64,000 bases of DNA. Origin: Synechocystis sp. PCC 6714 (GTDB lineage Bacteria; Cyanobacteriota; Cyanobacteriia; Cyanobacteriales; Microcystaceae). Position 1 is the stretch's first letter; each line of letters begins with the position of its first letter. Below are positions 4,413 to 31,270 of the stretch, piece after piece. The notes beneath the pieces are model-generated. The model was not told the DNA's origin. It did not search any database and saw nothing but the letters and a program-made list of their open reading frames with translations. The stretch is taken from the NCBI RefSeq assembly GCF_000478825.2, contig NZ_CP007542.1, forward strand, positions 3,038,001-3,102,000, given 5' to 3'. A program made the translations under genes and the position numbers.

Positions 4413-4457
4413 CTGTGGGATGGTTGGTTATTTAACAATATTAATGGAAGCAGAATA

Positions 4458-24475: not shown

Positions 24476-24529
24476 ATGCAATATTTTGAACAGGAGGATG
24501 TTCTACATTTAGTGAATTTCATCAGTTAA
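24476..24529 (+). pseudogene. Remnant or leader ORF resembling a DUF2283 antitoxin start (17 aa)
   Basis: An ATG-initiated 17-codon frame reads MQYFEQEDVLHLVNFIS and stops at TAA (24527-24529), with the stop overlapping the hicA ATG as TAATG. The first 13 residues look like the beginning of DUF2283 antitoxins (the pattern QYFExEDxLHLV), so this may be the stump of a lost antitoxin. As it stands it could act as a leader giving translational coupling to hicA. The call is tentative because the match is very short. Confidence 0.4.
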
Positions 24530-24744
24530 TGCCCAAGAAAATTCGTGAACTCAAAGCACTATTGAAGCAAGCGGGATTTACCGTCAAACCAGCAAAGGGA
24601 AGTCATAGCAAATGGACTCACCCCAGTCTCCCGCAGGCTATCATTATGGCAGGGAAGGACGGCGATGATGCTAAACTTTACCTAGAAAAGCAGGTGATGG
24701 AAAGTTTGGCCAAATTACGAAAACTTGATCAGGAGGGTAACTAA
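24529..24744 (+). CDS. hicA: HicA-type mRNA interferase toxin
   Basis: A 71-residue double-stranded-RNA-binding-fold toxin: PKKIRELKALLKQAGF, then the catalytic-histidine motif KGSHSKWTHP with H26, then YLEKQVMESLAKL. HicA cleaves mRNA and is neutralised by HicB. hicB begins 2 bp after its stop. The start overlaps the stop of a 17-codon frame (TAATG), suggesting reinitiation. All family features are intact, so it is probably functional. Confidence 0.87.
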   Translation: MPKKIRELKALLKQAGFTVKPAKGSHSKWTHPSLPQAIIMAGKDGDDAKLYLEKQVMESLAKLRKLDQEGN

Positions 24745-24746
24745 AA

Positions 24747-24953
24747 ATGAAATATACAATTGTCATTCAGTGGTCAGATACGGATAACTGCTTTGTTGTC
24801 TTTCTTCCAGATTTTGAATCGGTTATGCAGCCCGTTACCCACGGTGATAGCTATGATGAAGCATTGCAAAATGCCCAGGAAGTTTTGAGTTTGTTAACGG
24901 AGCTAGATGACGGGAAACTGCCCAAACCTCAACCACTTCTTCAAATGGCGTAG
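24747..24953 (+). CDS. hicB: HicB-type antitoxin
   Basis: A 68-residue protein with the HicB partial RNase H-like fold: MKYTIVIQWSDTDNCFVVFLPDF, then VTHGDSYDEALQNAQEVLSLL. It lacks a C-terminal DNA-binding domain, as in the short HicB subtype. It pairs with the hicA toxin 2 bp upstream. It differs from the truncated HicB-like gene at 52298-52465. Confidence 0.85.
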   Translation: MKYTIVIQWSDTDNCFVVFLPDFESVMQPVTHGDSYDEALQNAQEVLSLLTELDDGKLPKPQPLLQMA

Positions 24954-24982
24954 ACTGTAGATAAAAAGTTCTAAATATAGCA

Positions 24983-27724
24983 ATGATAGCGACCACTGAA
25001 TCTCTCCGCAGTTTTGTGCATTATTGCCAGCAACATATTAAGGGGGATGAAAAGTCGGAGTCCCAAACTTTTTTGACCAAGTTTTTTCAGGCTTTTGGTC
25101 ACGAGGGTATTAAGGAAGCAGGGGCAGAGTTTGAACAGAGGGTAAAAAAGAGTAGTAAACAGGATCGAACGGGCTTTGCGGATTTGGTCTGGCCGTCCAG
25201 GTTGAGGGTTAAAGGGGTGGTGATTGAAATGAAGAAGCGGGGCACAGATTTAACTTTGCATTATTCCCAGCTTGAACGGTATTGGATGCGGTTAACGCCT
25301 AAGCCCCAGTATTCAATCCTTTGTAATTTTGATGAGTTTTGGATCTACGACTTCACCAATCAAGTAGATGAGCCGGTGGATCGGGTCAGGCTGGAGGATT
25401 TACCTAAGCGTTTGGGGACTTTTTCCTTTATGGAAATTGGGGGGAAGGCTCCCATTTTTCGCAATAACCAAGTAGAGGTAACGGAACGCACCGCCCGACG
25501 CATGGGAGAGTTTTATCAGTTGGTGCGGGAGCGGGGTAAAAGGGAGAAGTTTGCCTATTTTACGGAGGAGCAGTTACAACGGTTTACTTTGCAATGTGTG
25601 CTGGCAATGTTTGCCGAGGATCGCAATCTTTTGCCCAGGGATTTGTTTGTGTCTTTGCTACAGGATTGTTTGACGGAGAAGGATAATGCTTATGATGCGT
25701 TTAGTGGCCTATTTCGGGCTATGAATCAGCCAGGCGTTGTTCCCCAGGGTCGTTATGCAGGAGTGGATTACTTTAATGGGGGTTTATTTGCAGAAATTCA
25801 GCCGATCGCCTTGGAAGAATCAGAGTTAAAACTTTTAGATGTTTGTGCCAGGGATAATTGGGAAAATATTCGTCCGTCGATTTTTGGCAATATCTTTGAA
25901 GGGGCGATTGATGAAAATGAGCGTCATGCTAGGGGCATTCATTACACGTCGGAAACAGATATTCGACAGATTGTACGGCCAACAATTTCAGATTATTGGG
26001 AAGAAAAAATCAATAATGCTAGAACGATTGGGGAATTAAATCAGCTTCAGCTAGAGTTACAAGCTTATCGAGTGCTTGATCCGGCCTGTGGATCGGGGAA
26101 TTTTCTTTATGTAGCTTATCAGGAACTAAAACGCATTGAACGGCTTTTAATTCAGAAGATTGCAGACAAACGCAAGCAACCACCAAGCCAAATGGAAATA
26201 GGTTTTGTCACACCTTTACAGCTTTTTGGCATGGATACAAATTCCTTTGCGGTGCAGTTAGCCAGGGTAACAATGATGATTGCCAGAAAAATTGCCATTG
26301 ATAAATTCGAGTTAACAGAACCAGCTTTACCGCTAGATTCGTTAGATAAAAATATTCTTTGCCAAGATGCTTTGTTTACAGATTGGCCAAGGGCCGATGC
26401 CATTATTGGAAATCCACCTTTTCTTGGGGGACATTTAATGCGTATAGAACTAGGTGATAATTATGTTGACAAGCTTTTCAAGCAGTTTCCAGAAGTCGTT
26501 AATCAACAAATAGACTTTGCAAGTCATTGGTTTCGCCTAGCTCATAATAAAATAAAAGAAAATTCTGGACGTGCAGGTTTAGTGGGAACAAATTCAATTA
26601 GTCAAGGCAAGAGTCGTCAAGCATCTTTAGACTATATTGTTGAGCATGGAGGATATATTCATAATGCTATTTCGTCGCAAATTTGGTCAGGAGATGCAAA
26701 AGTACATGTTAGTTTAGTCAATTGGATGACATCTAAACCGACTGAATTCTATTTGGATAACCGGCAAGTCAGTTTAATCAATTCATCATTAAAATCAGCT
26801 TCAGATATTCGACTAGCAAAGATTCTAAAAATCAATCAGAATGTTGCTTTTAGAGGAGTTGAACCTAATGGTAGTGGTTTTTTTATTAATGAGTATGTTG
26901 TTCACGAATGGATTTATAAAAATCAATCTAATAAGGCAGTTCTTAAATTATTTTCGATGGGGTCGAATTTGGTTCGTAATCCCCATGGAAAACCAGAGAG
27001 GTGGATTATCGACTTTAGGGATTTTAGCGTAGAAGAAGCTCAAATGTTTTGCCTGCCTTTCGAGCACGTCAAAAATACGGTTAAGGAATTTCGCCAAACA
27101 AATAGAGTATCAATGCTCCGGGAAAATTGGTGGAAGTTTAAACGTACAAATTTAGCAATGAGAAATGCCGTAACCAAACTATCCTTCTTTTTTAATGTTT
27201 CTAGGGTATCAAAGTGGTTTATTTTTCTGCCGATTGAAACAAAGTATTTACCGGCAGATTCAACGACAGTAGTAGCTTCGGATGATTTTTATGTGTTGGG
27301 AATATTGACCTCTGACGTTCATCGTCAATGGGTAAAAACCCAAAGCTCAACATTAAAGGGCGATACCCGTTACACTCACAATACTTGTTTTGAAACCTTT
27401 CCCTTTCCCCAAACCGCCAGTGAAAAACTGACCCAACAAATTCGTCAGGCGATGGTTGATTTACATGAATATCGTAGTCAGCAAATGGAGGCCAAACAAT
27501 GGGGAATTACCAAACTGTATAATGCTTTTTTCGATGAGCCGGCCAGTCAACTGTATAAACTCCATAAAAAACTGGATGAATTAGTGATGAAAGCCTATGG
27601 ATTCAAAAAAGATGACGACATTCTGGAAAAACTTTTAAACCTCAATCTTGAACTTGCTGAAAAGGAAAAAAAAGGTGAAAGTATTATCGGCCCCTGGGCT
27701 ATAGATAATCCACCAAAATCTTAA
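24983..27724 (+). CDS. MmeI-like single-chain restriction endonuclease-methyltransferase
   Basis: A 913-residue protein. The N-terminal nuclease domain has D67 and E82-x-K84 (VVIEMKKRG), a PD-(D/E)XK arrangement similar to the MmeI family. A helical connector follows. The adenine methyltransferase domain has the SAM motif DPACGSGNF near residue 366 and the catalytic NPPF near residue 476. The rest would be the target-recognition and C-terminal helical regions (YNAFFDEPASQLYKLHKKLDEL). Such type IIL/IIG enzymes combine cutting and modification in one chain with one recognition domain. There is no separate specificity gene nearby. The bases at about 26440-27350 are visibly more AT-rich than the 5' part. 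Confidence 0.8.
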   Translation: MIATTESLRSFVHYCQQHIKGDEKSESQTFLTKFFQAFGHEGIKEAGAEFEQRVKKSSKQDRTGFADLVWPSRLRVKGVVIEMKKRGTDLTLHYSQLERYWMRLTPKPQYSILCNFDEFWIYDFTNQVDEPVDRVRLEDLPKRLGTFSFMEIGGKAPIFRNNQVEVTERTARRMGEFYQLVRERGKREKFAYFTEEQLQRFTLQCVLAMFAEDRNLLPRDLFVSLLQDCLTEKDNAYDAFSGLFRAMNQPGVVPQGRYAGVDYFNGGLFAEIQPIALEESELKLLDVCARDNWENIRPSIFGNIFEGAIDENERHARGIHYTSETDIRQIVRPTISDYWEEKINNARTIGELNQLQLELQAYRVLDPACGSGNFLYVAYQELKRIERLLIQKIADKRKQPPSQMEIGFVTPLQLFGMDTNSFAVQLARVTMMIARKIAIDKFELTEPALPLDSLDKNILCQDALFTDWPRADAIIGNPPFLGGHLMRIELGDNYVDKLFKQFPEVVNQQIDFASHWFRLAHNKIKENSGRAGLVGTNSISQGKSRQASLDYIVEHGGYIHNAISSQIWSGDAKVHVSLVNWMTSKPTEFYLDNRQVSLINSSLKSASDIRLAKILKINQNVAFRGVEPNGSGFFINEYVVHEWIYKNQSNKAVLKLFSMGSNLVRNPHGKPERWIIDFRDFSVEEAQMFCLPFEHVKNTVKEFRQTNRVSMLRENWWKFKRTNLAMRNAVTKLSFFFNVSRVSKWFIFLPIETKYLPADSTTVVASDDFYVLGILTSDVHRQWVKTQSSTLKGDTRYTHNTCFETFPFPQTASEKLTQQIRQAMVDLHEYRSQQMEAKQWGITKLYNAFFDEPASQLYKLHKKLDELVMKAYGFKKDDDILEKLLNLNLELAEKEKKGESIIGPWAIDNPPKS

Positions 27725-27756
27725 ATTTTGATCAACTTAGTTAAAAGATAAACATC

Positions 27757-27984
27757 ATGAACACCGCCCAAATTAGTAACGATGGTTCTCATCAAATTGT
27801 AATACTCCCCGAAGGCTTCAAATTGTCGGGTACTGAGGTTTACATTAAAAAAGTTGGAAACACGGTTGTTTTAATCTCGAAAGATAACCCTTGGCAATCC
27901 TTGATTGAAAGCTTAGATCAATTCTCAGATGACTTTATGGCAACTAGGGAACAGCTTCCCCTCGATGTGCGAGAAGAATTTTAG
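27757..27984 (+). CDS. vapB: VapB-type antitoxin
   Basis: A 75-residue protein with an AbrB/SpoVT swapped-hairpin start (TAQISNDGSHQIVILPEGFKL, then VYIKKVGNTVVLI) and a C-terminal acidic toxin-binding tail (LDQFSDDFMATREQLPLDVREEF). It is the cognate antitoxin of the VapC ribonuclease, whose ATG immediately follows its stop. The gene starts 32 bp after the restriction-methyltransferase gene. Confidence 0.85.
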   Translation: MNTAQISNDGSHQIVILPEGFKLSGTEVYIKKVGNTVVLISKDNPWQSLIESLDQFSDDFMATREQLPLDVREEF

Positions 27985-28386
27985 ATGAAATACTTACTAG
28001 ATACAAATATTCGCATTTATCTAATTAAGAAGAAGCCGCTCCAAGTCTTGGCAAAATTTCAAACCCTAGAAGTGTCAGAAATTGGTATTTCATCCATTAC
28101 CGTAGCAGAATTAGAATATGGTGTCAGTAAAAGTCAACAGCAATCGAAAAACCGTGATGCCTTGATGCAGTTCTTGATTCCGCTAGAAATCATTGAGTTT
28201 AATCAAGAAGCGGCGATCGCCTATGGCAATATCAGAAGTAATCTGGAAAGTAGAGGTCTTGTCATTGGGGCTATGGATATGCTGATTGCGGCCCATGCGT
28301 TAAGTCTGGAAGTAACTCTTGTGAGCAATAATGTTCGAGAATTTTCACGCATTAGCAATTTATTCTTGGAAAACCGGGCAGAATAA
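27985..28386 (+). CDS. vapC: VapC-type PIN-domain ribonuclease toxin
   Basis: A 133-residue PIN protein. Catalytic acidic residues are visible: D6 (LLDTNIRIYLI), E42 (TVAELEYG) and D98 (GAMDMLIAAHAL), followed by the C-terminal LVSNNVREFSRI motif. VapC toxins cleave tRNA or rRNA. It is adjacent to vapB with no gap. All key residues are present, so it is probably active. After it come 134 bp containing a HIP1 site. Confidence 0.88.
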   Translation: MKYLLDTNIRIYLIKKKPLQVLAKFQTLEVSEIGISSITVAELEYGVSKSQQQSKNRDALMQFLIPLEIIEFNQEAAIAYGNIRSNLESRGLVIGAMDMLIAAHALSLEVTLVSNNVREFSRISNLFLENRAE

Positions 28387-28520
28387 ACTATCAATTAAAA
28401 TTTGACTTGTCACTTTTAACCACTCAGCGCACCGCGTAGCTGAACTCTTGGCGATCGCCAACTCAGACTAATCCATTCAATGGAATATAATTGTCAGTAA
28501 ACTCAACGGGAATTTGACCC

Positions 28521-28751
28521 ATGTCATCTGAAAACATTGCTACCGTTACCAAAATGATAGAATCTCTGCCGGAGATAGCTCAGACTCAGCTTATTGAACA
28601 TCTTCGAGAATATATTACTAGTCTTCAGGACGAACTAGAATGGGATAATCTTGTCAGTAAGACTCAGAATAATTTGATTCAAGCTGCAAAAAAAGCCAAG
28701 CAGGAAATTGCTGACGGAAAATCCAAGCCGATGGACTACGAAAAGTTATGA
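28521..28751 (+). CDS. Antitoxin of a RelE-type module (module 1)
   Basis: A 76-residue acidic, helical protein ending KQEIADGKSKPMDYEKL, a C-terminal pattern that I associate with cyanobacterial antitoxins preceding RelE/ParE-like toxins. The N-terminal region (IESLPEIAQTQLIEHLREYI) would be the dimerisation part. Its stop overlaps the toxin ATG by 4 bp (ATGA), indicating coupling. No DNA-binding motif is obvious, so a named family is not assigned. Confidence 0.68.
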   Translation: MSSENIATVTKMIESLPEIAQTQLIEHLREYITSLQDELEWDNLVSKTQNNLIQAAKKAKQEIADGKSKPMDYEKL

Positions 28752-29011
28752 AATCAGCAACCATACCATCATTTTGGGAGAATTACAAATTACTAGACTT
28801 TCAAACTAGACAAAGAGTTAGAAAAACTTACTACTTGTGGCGTGATAATCCGTTTCATCCCTCTCTACATTTTAAATGTATTAATCGACAGGAAGATATT
28901 TGGTCTGTCAGAGTTAGTCTTAATTATCGAGCACTAGGTATTCTTGAAAAAGATACAGTAACTTGGTTTTGGATTGGTAGCCACAAAAACTATGAGCAAT
29001 TTTATTCATAG
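28748..29011 (+). CDS. RelE/ParE-superfamily toxin (module 1)
   Basis: An 87-residue protein with the RelE-fold order: a helical N-terminus (SFWENYKLLDFQTRQRVRKTYYLW), FHPSLHFKCI, a WSVRVSLNYRALG strand pair with the Arg/Tyr signature, and a C-terminal WFWIGSHKNYEQFY strand. Such toxins usually cleave mRNA on the ribosome. It overlaps its antitoxin gene by 4 bp. The frame after the stop runs into a 19-bp repeat containing HIP1 (29001-29019), partly inside the gene's end. Confidence 0.75.
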   Translation: MKSATIPSFWENYKLLDFQTRQRVRKTYYLWRDNPFHPSLHFKCINRQEDIWSVRVSLNYRALGILEKDTVTWFWIGSHKNYEQFYS

Positions 29012-29019
29012 GCGATCGC
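29001..29019. repeat. 19-bp HIP1-containing direct repeat, copy 1
   Basis: TTTATTCATAGGCGATCGC is repeated exactly at 30878-30896. The core GCGATCGC is the HIP1 palindrome; the shared 11-bp flank TTTATTCATAG goes beyond it. The copies lie at the ends of two different toxin-antitoxin modules about 1.88 kb apart. Confidence 0.75.
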
Positions 29020-29069
29020 TAATCCTTTTTCACATAATTCAAACTTTAAACAAATCCTGTCAAACTACA

Positions 29070-29288
29070 ATGCTAAAAACATCAGAATTCCAAAAAGCCA
29101 TTGAATCCGTTGAAAATCTCCCCCTAGATGATCAACAAATCTTGCTTGACATTATCCAGAAAAGATTGCAAGAAAAAAGAAGAAAACAATTAACCGAAGA
29201 AATCAAAGAGATTCGCCAAGAATTTGCTAACGGTGATGTTCAGTTTGGTTCAGTGAATCAATTTTTAGAAGCGCTCGATCAAGAATGA
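29070..29288 (+). CDS. Antitoxin of a RelE-type module (module 2)
   Basis: I start at the ATG at 29070 (72 residues) rather than the in-frame TTG at 28974, which would overlap the preceding toxin and add a 32-residue non-conserved segment. The protein is helical and charged, ending QEFANGDVQFGSVNQFLEALDQE, a tail I associate with cyanobacterial antitoxins of RelE-like toxins. The stop overlaps the next ATG by 4 bp. Its layout resembles module 1 directly upstream, but the sequences are clearly different. Confidence 0.68.
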   Translation: MLKTSEFQKAIESVENLPLDDQQILLDIIQKRLQEKRRKQLTEEIKEIRQEFANGDVQFGSVNQFLEALDQE

Positions 29289-29566
29289 AAATTGCCTGGT
29301 CTCCAAAATCGTTACGTTCATTCAAGCGCCTGATTCGCAAAAATCCTAATCTGAGGCCGATGATTGAACAAGTATTACATCAGTTGGCAACAGATCCTTT
29401 TCACCCTAGCCTACGCACCCATAAACTAAAAGGAGAACTAGCTAACGTCTGGTCATGCTCTATCGACTATAATTATCGTCTGCTATTTGAATTTGTGAAC
29501 AACCTAGAAGATAACGAAGAGGCAATTTTATTACTAAATTTAGGTTCCCATGATGAAGTCTACTAA
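29285..29566 (+). CDS. RelE/YafQ-type toxin (module 2)
   Basis: A 93-residue protein: MKIAWSPKSLRSFKRLIRKNP, then DPFHPSLRTHKLKGELANVWSC, SIDYNYRLLFEFV, and a C-terminal LLLNLGSHDEVY. The LKGxLxxxWS and DYNYRLLF segments with the terminal GSHDEVY are standard for YafQ/RelE-type mRNA interferases. It overlaps its antitoxin gene by 4 bp. The protein appears complete and probably active. After it come 93 bp with another HIP1 site before the first mntA. Confidence 0.82.
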   Translation: MKIAWSPKSLRSFKRLIRKNPNLRPMIEQVLHQLATDPFHPSLRTHKLKGELANVWSCSIDYNYRLLFEFVNNLEDNEEAILLLNLGSHDEVY

Positions 29567-29659
29567 TTTAACTTGTCAAAAAAGAAAGGTCGATCTCTAG
29601 GCGATCGCCAAAATCTCTAAAGTTCAAATTTCAATAAACTCAGCTATACAATAAACATC

Positions 29660-29989
29660 ATGGACAAGATAAACGTTAGTAAATTGACCAAAGAGTTACC
29701 AATGGAGCAGATTCGTCAATTTTGTCACAAATGGCAGGTTAAGGAATTTGCCTTGTTTAGTTCCATCCTACGTCCAGACTTCCATTCAGCCAGCGATGTT
29801 GACATCCTCATTGAATTTGCCCCTACAGCAAAACGAGGTTTGACAGAAACAATACAGATGCAGGATGAACTGCAAGCTATCTTTCAACGTCCCATCGATT
29901 TGATTATCAAAAATGCCATTAATCGAAGTGAAAATTGGCTCAGACGCAAAAACATTTTAGAATCGGCCCAGATTATCTATGCAACGTGA
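29660..29989 (+). CDS. mntA: MntA-type nucleotidyltransferase antitoxin (module 1)
   Basis: A 109-residue minimal nucleotidyltransferase. The canonical active-site motif GSx10DxD is altered here: residues 34-35 are Ser-Ser (FALFSSILRPDF) followed by D46 and D48 (SDVDILIEF). In MntA/HepT modules this enzyme neutralises the HEPN ribonuclease by adding AMP to a tyrosine in its RX4HXY motif. The C-terminal ENWLRRKNILESAQIIYA overlaps the HepT start by 11 bp. The Gly-to-Ser change could weaken catalysis. Confidence 0.82.
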   Translation: MDKINVSKLTKELPMEQIRQFCHKWQVKEFALFSSILRPDFHSASDVDILIEFAPTAKRGLTETIQMQDELQAIFQRPIDLIIKNAINRSENWLRRKNILESAQIIYAT

Positions 29990-30236
29990 TCAAGAATCTC
30001 TAATTGATATTGCCAATGCTATCAGACGTATTTTACGATACACAGATGAAATTGATAAAGTACAACTAGAAATTAACGATGAGAAATTATCAGCCATTCT
30101 CTATCAAATTACGATTATTGGAGAAGCAACAAGGCGAATTTCTCAAGACTTTCGCAATCAACATCCAACCATAGCTTAGCTTGGCGAGAAATGGCGGCAA
30201 TGCGGAATGTTATTGTTCATGAATATGATCAATGGG
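29979..30236 (+). pseudogene. hepT: HepT (HEPN ribonuclease) broken by a 5-bp duplication (module 1)
   Basis: The frame starts at ATG 29979 and gives 66 residues (MQRDQESLIDIANAIRRIL through YQITIIGEATRRIS to NQHPTIA) before TAG at 30177-30179. At that point AGCTT is present twice in tandem. Removing one copy restores a frame from 30182 reading WREMAAMRNVIVHEYDQWE, which contains the HEPN active-site motif RX4HXY. The frameshift therefore removes the catalytic and AMPylated residues. The normal last 30 or so residues are also absent; the restored frame runs into the next mntA gene. Confidence 0.85.
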
Positions 30237-30531
30237 AGTTTCCTTCCAAATCCTTCGTCAATTTTGCCAACAACATAAAATCACTGAATTATCCGTTTTT
30301 GGTTCCATCCTAAGGGAAGATTTTAATTTTGATAGCGATATTGATTTATTGGTTAAATTTGATCCGAATGCCCATATTAGTTTAATGGATATGATTAAAA
30401 TAGAAGATGAATTTAAAAGATTACTAAGACGAAATATTGATCTCGTTTCTAAAAAAGCGATTGAAAATAGCAAAAATTGGATTCGTCGCAAGAATATTCT
30501 CAATGATGCGGAGATTATTTATGCTCAGTGA
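30232..30531 (+). CDS. mntA: MntA-type nucleotidyltransferase antitoxin (module 2)
   Basis: A 99-residue minimal nucleotidyltransferase with an intact motif: G24-S25 (VFGSILREDF) and D36/D38 (SDIDLLVKF). It ends SKNWIRRKNILNDAEIIYAQ, parallel to module 1. Its start codon falls within the HepT1 remnant (GATCAATGGGAG), so the original 5' end may have been replaced at a deletion junction. It overlaps the downstream hepT2 start by 11 bp. The enzyme domain looks complete apart from a possibly non-native first few residues. Confidence 0.82.
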   Translation: MGVSFQILRQFCQQHKITELSVFGSILREDFNFDSDIDLLVKFDPNAHISLMDMIKIEDEFKRLLRRNIDLVSKKAIENSKNWIRRKNILNDAEIIYAQ

Positions 30532-30856
30532 TCAAGAAATTATTTTGGATCTTTATCATGCTCTCAATCAAATTCTTAGTTTTACTCACAATATGGATAA
30601 ACAAGAATTTGTTGATGATGAAAAAACGTAATCTTCAGTCTTATACCAATTAGTAATTATAGGAGAAGCTGTAAACCGATTATCTGAACAATTCAAAAGT
30701 CAATATCCCCAAATTCCATTCAATGAGATTCGTGGAATGCGGAACCGGGTTGTCCATGAATATAAAGAAGTTGATTGTGATATTATTTGGGAAGCTATAC
30801 AAAAAGATATTCCTGCGTTAATTTACTTTATTTCATCAGTCAATAGCCATGACTAA
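30521..30856 (+). pseudogene. hepT: HepT (HEPN ribonuclease) broken by one in-frame stop (module 2)
   Basis: From ATG 30521 the frame reads 36 residues, ending VDDEKT, then TAA at 30629-30631. It continues in the same frame without any further stop: SSVLYQLVIIGEAVNRLSEQF, then NEIRGMRNRVVHEYKEVD with the RX4HXY motif, to a natural TAA at 30854-30856. HepT homologues have Gln at the stop position (DEKTQSxV), so a single C-to-T change explains it. The rest is well preserved, suggesting recent inactivation. Only a 36-residue peptide without active site would be made. Confidence 0.87.
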
Positions 30857-30877
30857 TTATTTTCTAATTATGAAGAC

Positions 30878-30896
30878 TTTATTCATAGGCGATCGC
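30878..30896. repeat. 19-bp HIP1-containing direct repeat, copy 2
   Basis: Identical to 29001-29019 (TTTATTCATAGGCGATCGC). It lies 21 bp after the natural stop of the hepT2 pseudogene. The identical flank suggests that the intergenic joints of these modules share ancestry or have exchanged sequence. Confidence 0.75.
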
Positions 30897-30916
30897 CATC
30901 CTATTTAATCAATTAA

Positions 30917-31270
30917 ACACCAATTAAAAACAACGAAATTTTAACCATCCGAAAACAGAGAATTGAGTATTCGACTAGTCTAGATGCATTAGTTGCCATC
31001 ACTAAACGTCTTAGCCTATTTGAGCATCAATATCATTGGGATTCCGAGGAATTTTTTAATCTATACAGTAATGGTTTAATTCGCGACGAAGAACCGTTTA
31101 TTGAGTGGGCTAATGATTATCGGCATTATATTGCCTTACGCCCAGAAGTAACAAACCTATCAACCGGCGCAACCCACAGCAGATCCTTTGGCGATCGCCA
31201 TCAACAAAGCTTGACGGGGAATTTGAACATTCTCGATGCCTGTGCTATTCTTTCCCCCATTCTCGGCTAA
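30917..31270 (+). pseudogene. Start-less remnant resembling a TumA-type antitoxin
   Basis: An open frame without any ATG reads IEYSTSLDALVAITKRLSLF, then WDSEEFFNLYSNGLIRD and PFIEWANDYRHYIALRPEV before becoming non-conserved and stopping at 31268-31270. The conserved block (about 30962-31150) resembles TumA antitoxins of the TumE/TumA system. The N-terminal coding end and any TumE toxin partner are missing, so I treat it as a remnant. A non-ATG start such as ATT at 30962 cannot be excluded. The family name rests on memory of the WANDYRHYLALR motif. Confidence 0.5.

Follow-up and report, generated by a model that had tools for sequence, protein, structure and literature searches.

The 5-bp tandem duplication described here lies in hepT1, a toxin gene on the chromosome of Synechocystis sp. 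PCC 6714, and we conclude that it is very probably one of several lesions in two type VII MntA-HepT modules that lie in tandem and are decaying. In such modules, HepT is an RNase that MntA silences by AMPylation, according to the sections of PMC7641770 available to us. Within a 64,000-nucleotide stretch of the chromosome, which we refer to as the window, the first module has undergone at least three changes, the duplication among them, and the second module bears a lesion of its own (Table 1). What we see is the ordinary decay of toxin-antitoxin genes of a known kind. Because the lesions differ between species, the comparison with sister Synechocystis genomes points to decay that would have been repeated and independent.

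Table 1. Features of the array and of the neighboring modules (window coordinates).
Feature	Position	Strand	Basis
VapB-VapC module	27757..28386	+	NCBIfam VapC, 176.3 bits (cut-off 140)
Two-gene module, 76 and 87 aa, resemblance to RelE by eye only	28521..29011	+	ORFs
Two-gene module with RelE/StbE-family toxin (second gene)	29070..29566	+	ORFs, alignment, NCBIfam
MntA1, 109 aa; GSX10DXD reads SS...DVD	29660..29989	+	ORF, NTP_transf_2, NCBIfam MntA, motif column
HepT1, N-terminal part, 66 aa	29979..30179	+	ORF ending at the stop met past the frameshift; HepT-like match
5-bp tandem duplication, derived	30172..30182	+	AGCTT at 30173-30177 and 30178-30182; spacing and alignment
HepT1, continuation in the other frame	30183..30231	+	RX4HXY codons at 30203-30226; homology up to HEYDQ
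Junction of HepT1 and 5' part of MntA2	30230..30236	+	blastn pieces and alignment; 220 bp here in the sister genome G003
MntA2, open, 99 aa; GSX10DXD intact	30232..30531	+	ORF; first codons contributed by the junction
HepT2, RX4HXY present; internal TAA at 30629-30631	30521..30856	+	Profile, 96.7 bits; one TAA inside

A first-pass annotation made from the letters alone had read the locus as a HepT toxin inactivated by a 5-bp repeat, and its description of the repeat itself holds. AGCTT occurs twice in tandem at 30173-30182 (the period-5 stretch is 30172-30182), the gene belongs to the HepT family by profile match, and the five bases shift the frame just before RX4HXY, the motif tied to RNase action and AMPylation. 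Residues 11-59 of the N-terminal part match the HepT-like profile (E 8.9e-7), and over the gene as a whole the Pfam HepT-like profile is split, with positions 1-73 matching up to 30158 and positions 74-96 matching in another frame from 30164. HepT1 terminates after 66 codons; the WRE...RX4HXY segment is encoded in the downstream frame, where the out-of-frame RX4HXY starts at 30203, 20 bases from the end of the duplication. From the GEA codons to RX4HXY, HepT1 has 83 nt, whereas every one of the 111 open HepT genes that contain the two landmarks has 78 nt; another 17 open genes, in which one landmark is missing, were excluded. When the DNA is aligned with that of four other cyanobacteria and of the syntenic copy in the sister Synechocystis G003, only the window has bases in five additional columns. 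The first-pass annotation had raised the possibility that close relatives share the 5 bp; the bases are absent from all five relatives aligned, including the copy in G003, the row of which has an additional large gap that reflects a deletion of its own. Judged by this comparison, the duplication is confirmed as real and derived. As a bare repeat, AGCTT is unremarkable, and its meaning comes from the comparison: the window contains 42 non-homopolymer 5-bp tandem duplications vs 44.4 on average over 20 shuffles (range 32-56). A chance repeat as the whole explanation is ruled out, since spacing and alignment reveal a derived insertion. Searches of solved-structure sequences gave no match to the N-terminal part of HepT1 (E up to 0.1) or to MntA1 (E up to 0.001).

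The duplication is not the only change in hepT1. HepT homology in the window stops after HEYDQ (about 30231), and the next MntA gene then begins. Two blastn pieces place window positions 30232 and 30235 opposite positions 4421 and 4200 of the corresponding G003 locus (L018), and the about 220 bp that G003 has at this junction comprise the remainder of HepT1 plus the beginning of MntA2, which the window does not have. This comparison shows that the junction has cost HepT1 its C-terminal part and MntA2 its 5' end. In 124 open HepT genes, the number of residues beyond RX4HXY is 27 at the 5% point and 32 at the median. Because the C-terminal part of HepT1 is also lost, the duplication alone is not established as what inactivated the toxin, and the earlier proposal that one mutation had done so is not supported.

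The antitoxin of the first module, which the first-pass annotation had taken to be left intact, has an open frame, yet its GSX10DXD motif begins with SS in place of GS. The column holds Gly in 133 of 134 distinct MntA sequences (from 143 pairings), with Ser in MntA1 of the window only, and the Gly is retained in MntA1 of G003. In an archaeal MntA, changing GS to AT abolished modification of HepT (PMC7641770, in the part available to us). MntA1 and MntA2 both exceed the Pfam cut-off for NTP_transf_2 (E 5e-15 and 3.4e-13), and both match the NCBIfam MntA model (NF047752) at 30.6 and 37 bits, below its curated cut-off of 60. Eight MntA-like partners elsewhere, each beside an open HepT, have FGD or FGL for FGS (L134, L144, L147, L150, L154, L158, L172, and L195) and are perhaps non-catalytic antitoxins. 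An alternative reading is that slippage, in one event, disabled an MntA-HepT1 module that was otherwise intact and left the rest untouched. The derived 5-bp insertion and the open MntA1 frame agree with it; however, the loss of the HepT1 C-terminal part at the MntA2 junction and the MntA1 motif without its Gly make it unlikely. The duplication could nonetheless have been the first lesion of the module.

The second module also argues against a single event, because HepT2, in the same array, bears its own nonsense codon. In both modules, a HepT-like HEPN gene is immediately preceded, on the same strand, by an MNT gene, and neither module has an uninterrupted HepT frame, with HepT1 frameshifted and truncated and HepT2 interrupted by the TAA at 30629. 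The RX4HXY codons are present in both toxin genes, out of frame in HepT1 and past the nonsense codon in HepT2. HepT2 is open in G003 and has a different nonsense codon in a second sister genome (G001). Three-taxon codon counts assign to the window 5 nonsynonymous and 2 synonymous changes over 57 MntA2 codons, which are too few for dating or selection, and 4 nonsynonymous changes, 1 stop, and 7 synonymous changes in HepT2, which are too few for dating.

Synteny with G003 frames the array. On the left, identity is 90% and 85% over 24529-29096, and on the right, it is 84% over 30235-31102, the match ending within 250 bp of HepT2. G003 has lesions of its own: deletions collapse MntA1 and the N-terminal part of HepT1, and MntA2-HepT2 is open. 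A third, open MntA-HepT pair (L018, about 5310-4650, minus strand) replaces the RelE-family pair that the window has at 29070-29566. In G001, HepT2 has a stop, and MntA2 is truncated, 157 bp from the contig end. MntA genes decay as well, as in the truncated MntA1 of G003 and the truncated MntA2 of G001, and one MNT match of the genus (G003:C1:3545342) contains two stops. G004 has no match to the array locus. Of the 17 HepT loci in five Synechocystis genomes, 5 are broken, with at least one in four of the five genomes and the two rows of the window HepT1 taken as one locus. In G002, a related open MntA with HID where the motif has DXD (L020, contig 55, about 1950-1524, minus strand) adjoins a HepT fragment that spans only positions 83-117 of the 120 in the profile.

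To place the locus in its family, we surveyed HepT matches, of which there are 220 in 50 genomes of one cyanobacterial family (38 of the 50 genomes have one). The loci comprise 140 regions from the better-scoring HepT matches listed and 8 further loci; the matches left out include at least four of those listed (in G016, G019, G032, and G029), and gene models were built with profiles made from the survey sequences. Among near-complete pairs from these loci, HepT contains an internal nonsense codon in 11 of 136 and MntA in none of 136. The 11 cases each belong to a different one of the 70 clusters formed at 80% identity, and a one-sided binomial test that allows for gene length gives p 0.0015. 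The 136 pairs come from 153 HepT models, 17 of which were excluded: those cut by the locus end in overlapping loci (L155, L168, L189, and L209); the HepT1 models of the window and G003, the G002 fragment, L092, and a short model in L247; L126 (HepT stop, no MntA) and L019 (HepT stop, MntA truncated); L157 and L215 (divergent neighbor, HepT open) and L213 (MntA cut by the contig end); and L124, L136, and L211 (HepT open, no MntA; 254, 29, and 688 bases present upstream, respectively). Stops in the last tenth of a model were ignored (HepT in L171, L219, and L222; MntA in L200). Selection by HepT score tends to hide broken HepT but not broken MntA, a bias that runs against the 11-vs-0 result; frameshifted and shortened HepT genes are undercounted. 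In a second set chosen by similarity to MntA and biased towards intact MntA (31 of 57 loci examined, the other 26 being without cyanobacterial titles), the 24 cyanobacterial loci (L023-L045 and L067) have a full open HepT in 14, a HepT with a stop in 3, a partial HepT in 3, and no HepT found in 4. The family count fits toxin-first decay as a general trend, which is unsurprising. Counting against it, MntA can disappear entirely, as in L211 and perhaps L124, and is truncated in G003 and G001. In the literature consulted, we found no description of the array locus and no census of nonsense codons in HepT vs MntA; the words "toxin," "frameshift," and "pseudogene" are all absent from the main text of PMC4060947.

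Breaking a toxin gene would be cheap while its antitoxin is present, and breaking the antitoxin first would be harmful; HepT lesions would therefore come first, with MntA drifting later, an order that module 1 may or may not have followed. We suggest that the duplication itself arose through local slippage during replication or repair. The first-pass annotation had presented it as direct evidence of replication slippage, which overstates the case, since the footprint of an excised transposon could give a similar duplication. Some transposons are known to duplicate 5 bp on insertion, and short direct duplications can be left on excision. The alternative that the duplication is the target-site footprint of an element once present in HepT1 finds some support elsewhere in the family: two open HepT genes have no adjoining MntA, one with enough upstream sequence to contain it (L211) and one with none in the 254 bp before the contig end (L124), and by eye the upstream sequence of both, in the place of MntA, resembles the terminal stretch of a transposase-like gene; the antitoxin side may thus have been replaced. 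At the site in HepT1, however, the alignment has only the five bases, and we regard a transposon footprint as distinctly unlikely.

A broader alternative holds that HepT is lost repeatedly in cyanobacteria while selection keeps MntA, either as an anti-addiction factor against other HepT modules of the same genome or as a free AMP-transferase with new targets; we consider this improbable. It is very improbable that the duplication is an assembly or sequencing error and that the living cell has one AGCTT unit: the other HepT1 lesions are independent of the duplication, and the finished PCC 6714 genome, four circular contigs made up of a 3.5-Mb chromosome plus three plasmids (109, 104, and 41 kb), rests on a PacBio assembly for which an Illumina draft served as correction (PMC4118070). 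Reversible phase variation, in which 5-bp copy number switches HepT1 on and off, is scarcely credible, because, although short tandem units can change in number, there are only two units here, the C-terminal part of HepT1 is gone, and the repeat is in none of the five relatives aligned.

The decaying tandem stands at the end of a defense-type island (24983-30856), all on the plus strand, in the order type IIG restriction-methyltransferase (PADLOC, 1340.9 bits), VapBC, two small two-gene modules, and the two MntA-HepT modules. The module at 28521-29011 has no NCBIfam or PADLOC match. A GGCGATCGC-centered repeat recurs in the gaps between the two-gene modules or at their margins (28442-28461, 29004-29023, 29593-29612, 30881-30900, and 31183-31202). 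Because G003 has a different toxin-antitoxin pair beside one of these copies, the repeats may be exchange points. Promoter-like sites are at expectation (8 vs a shuffled mean of 7.1), and terminator-like sites are above it (4 vs 0.8).

The MntA-HepT module SO_3165/SO_3166 of Shewanella oneidensis, as described in the part of PMC7641770 available to us, shares with the window a HEPN gene that immediately follows an MNT gene, the PF01909 and PF01934 domains, the RX4HXY codons that both window HepTs have, and the GSX10DXD motif of MntA2. The window differs from it in that both HepTs are broken, MntA1 has SS for GS, and the modules are joined by a deletion. Closer by genus, Synechocystis sp. PCC 6803 has the MNT-HEPN pairs sll1504-sll1505, ssl2749-sll1411, and slr5017-slr5018, which are two-gene modules of the same kind, likened here by description (PMC4963859); in the main text of that source, as far as it was available, the words "pseudogene," "frameshift," and "truncated" are absent. 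The locus also resembles the solo antitoxins and toxin-antitoxin-derived genes treated in the available part of PMC2701414, in that the antitoxin frame is kept while the toxin is broken and module content varies between close relatives. Unlike solo antitoxins in general, some decay steps here can be read with the help of sister genomes.

For gene annotation, the locus is a caution that MntA genes with open frames may partner dead toxins. That toxins should break earlier than antitoxins is an expected rule, on which the count of nonsense codons in one family, 11 in HepT and 0 in MntA, puts a simple number. Finally, with sister genomes bearing other lesions at the same locus, the array of PCC 6714 is a case in which the decay of a tandem toxin-antitoxin array can be read.
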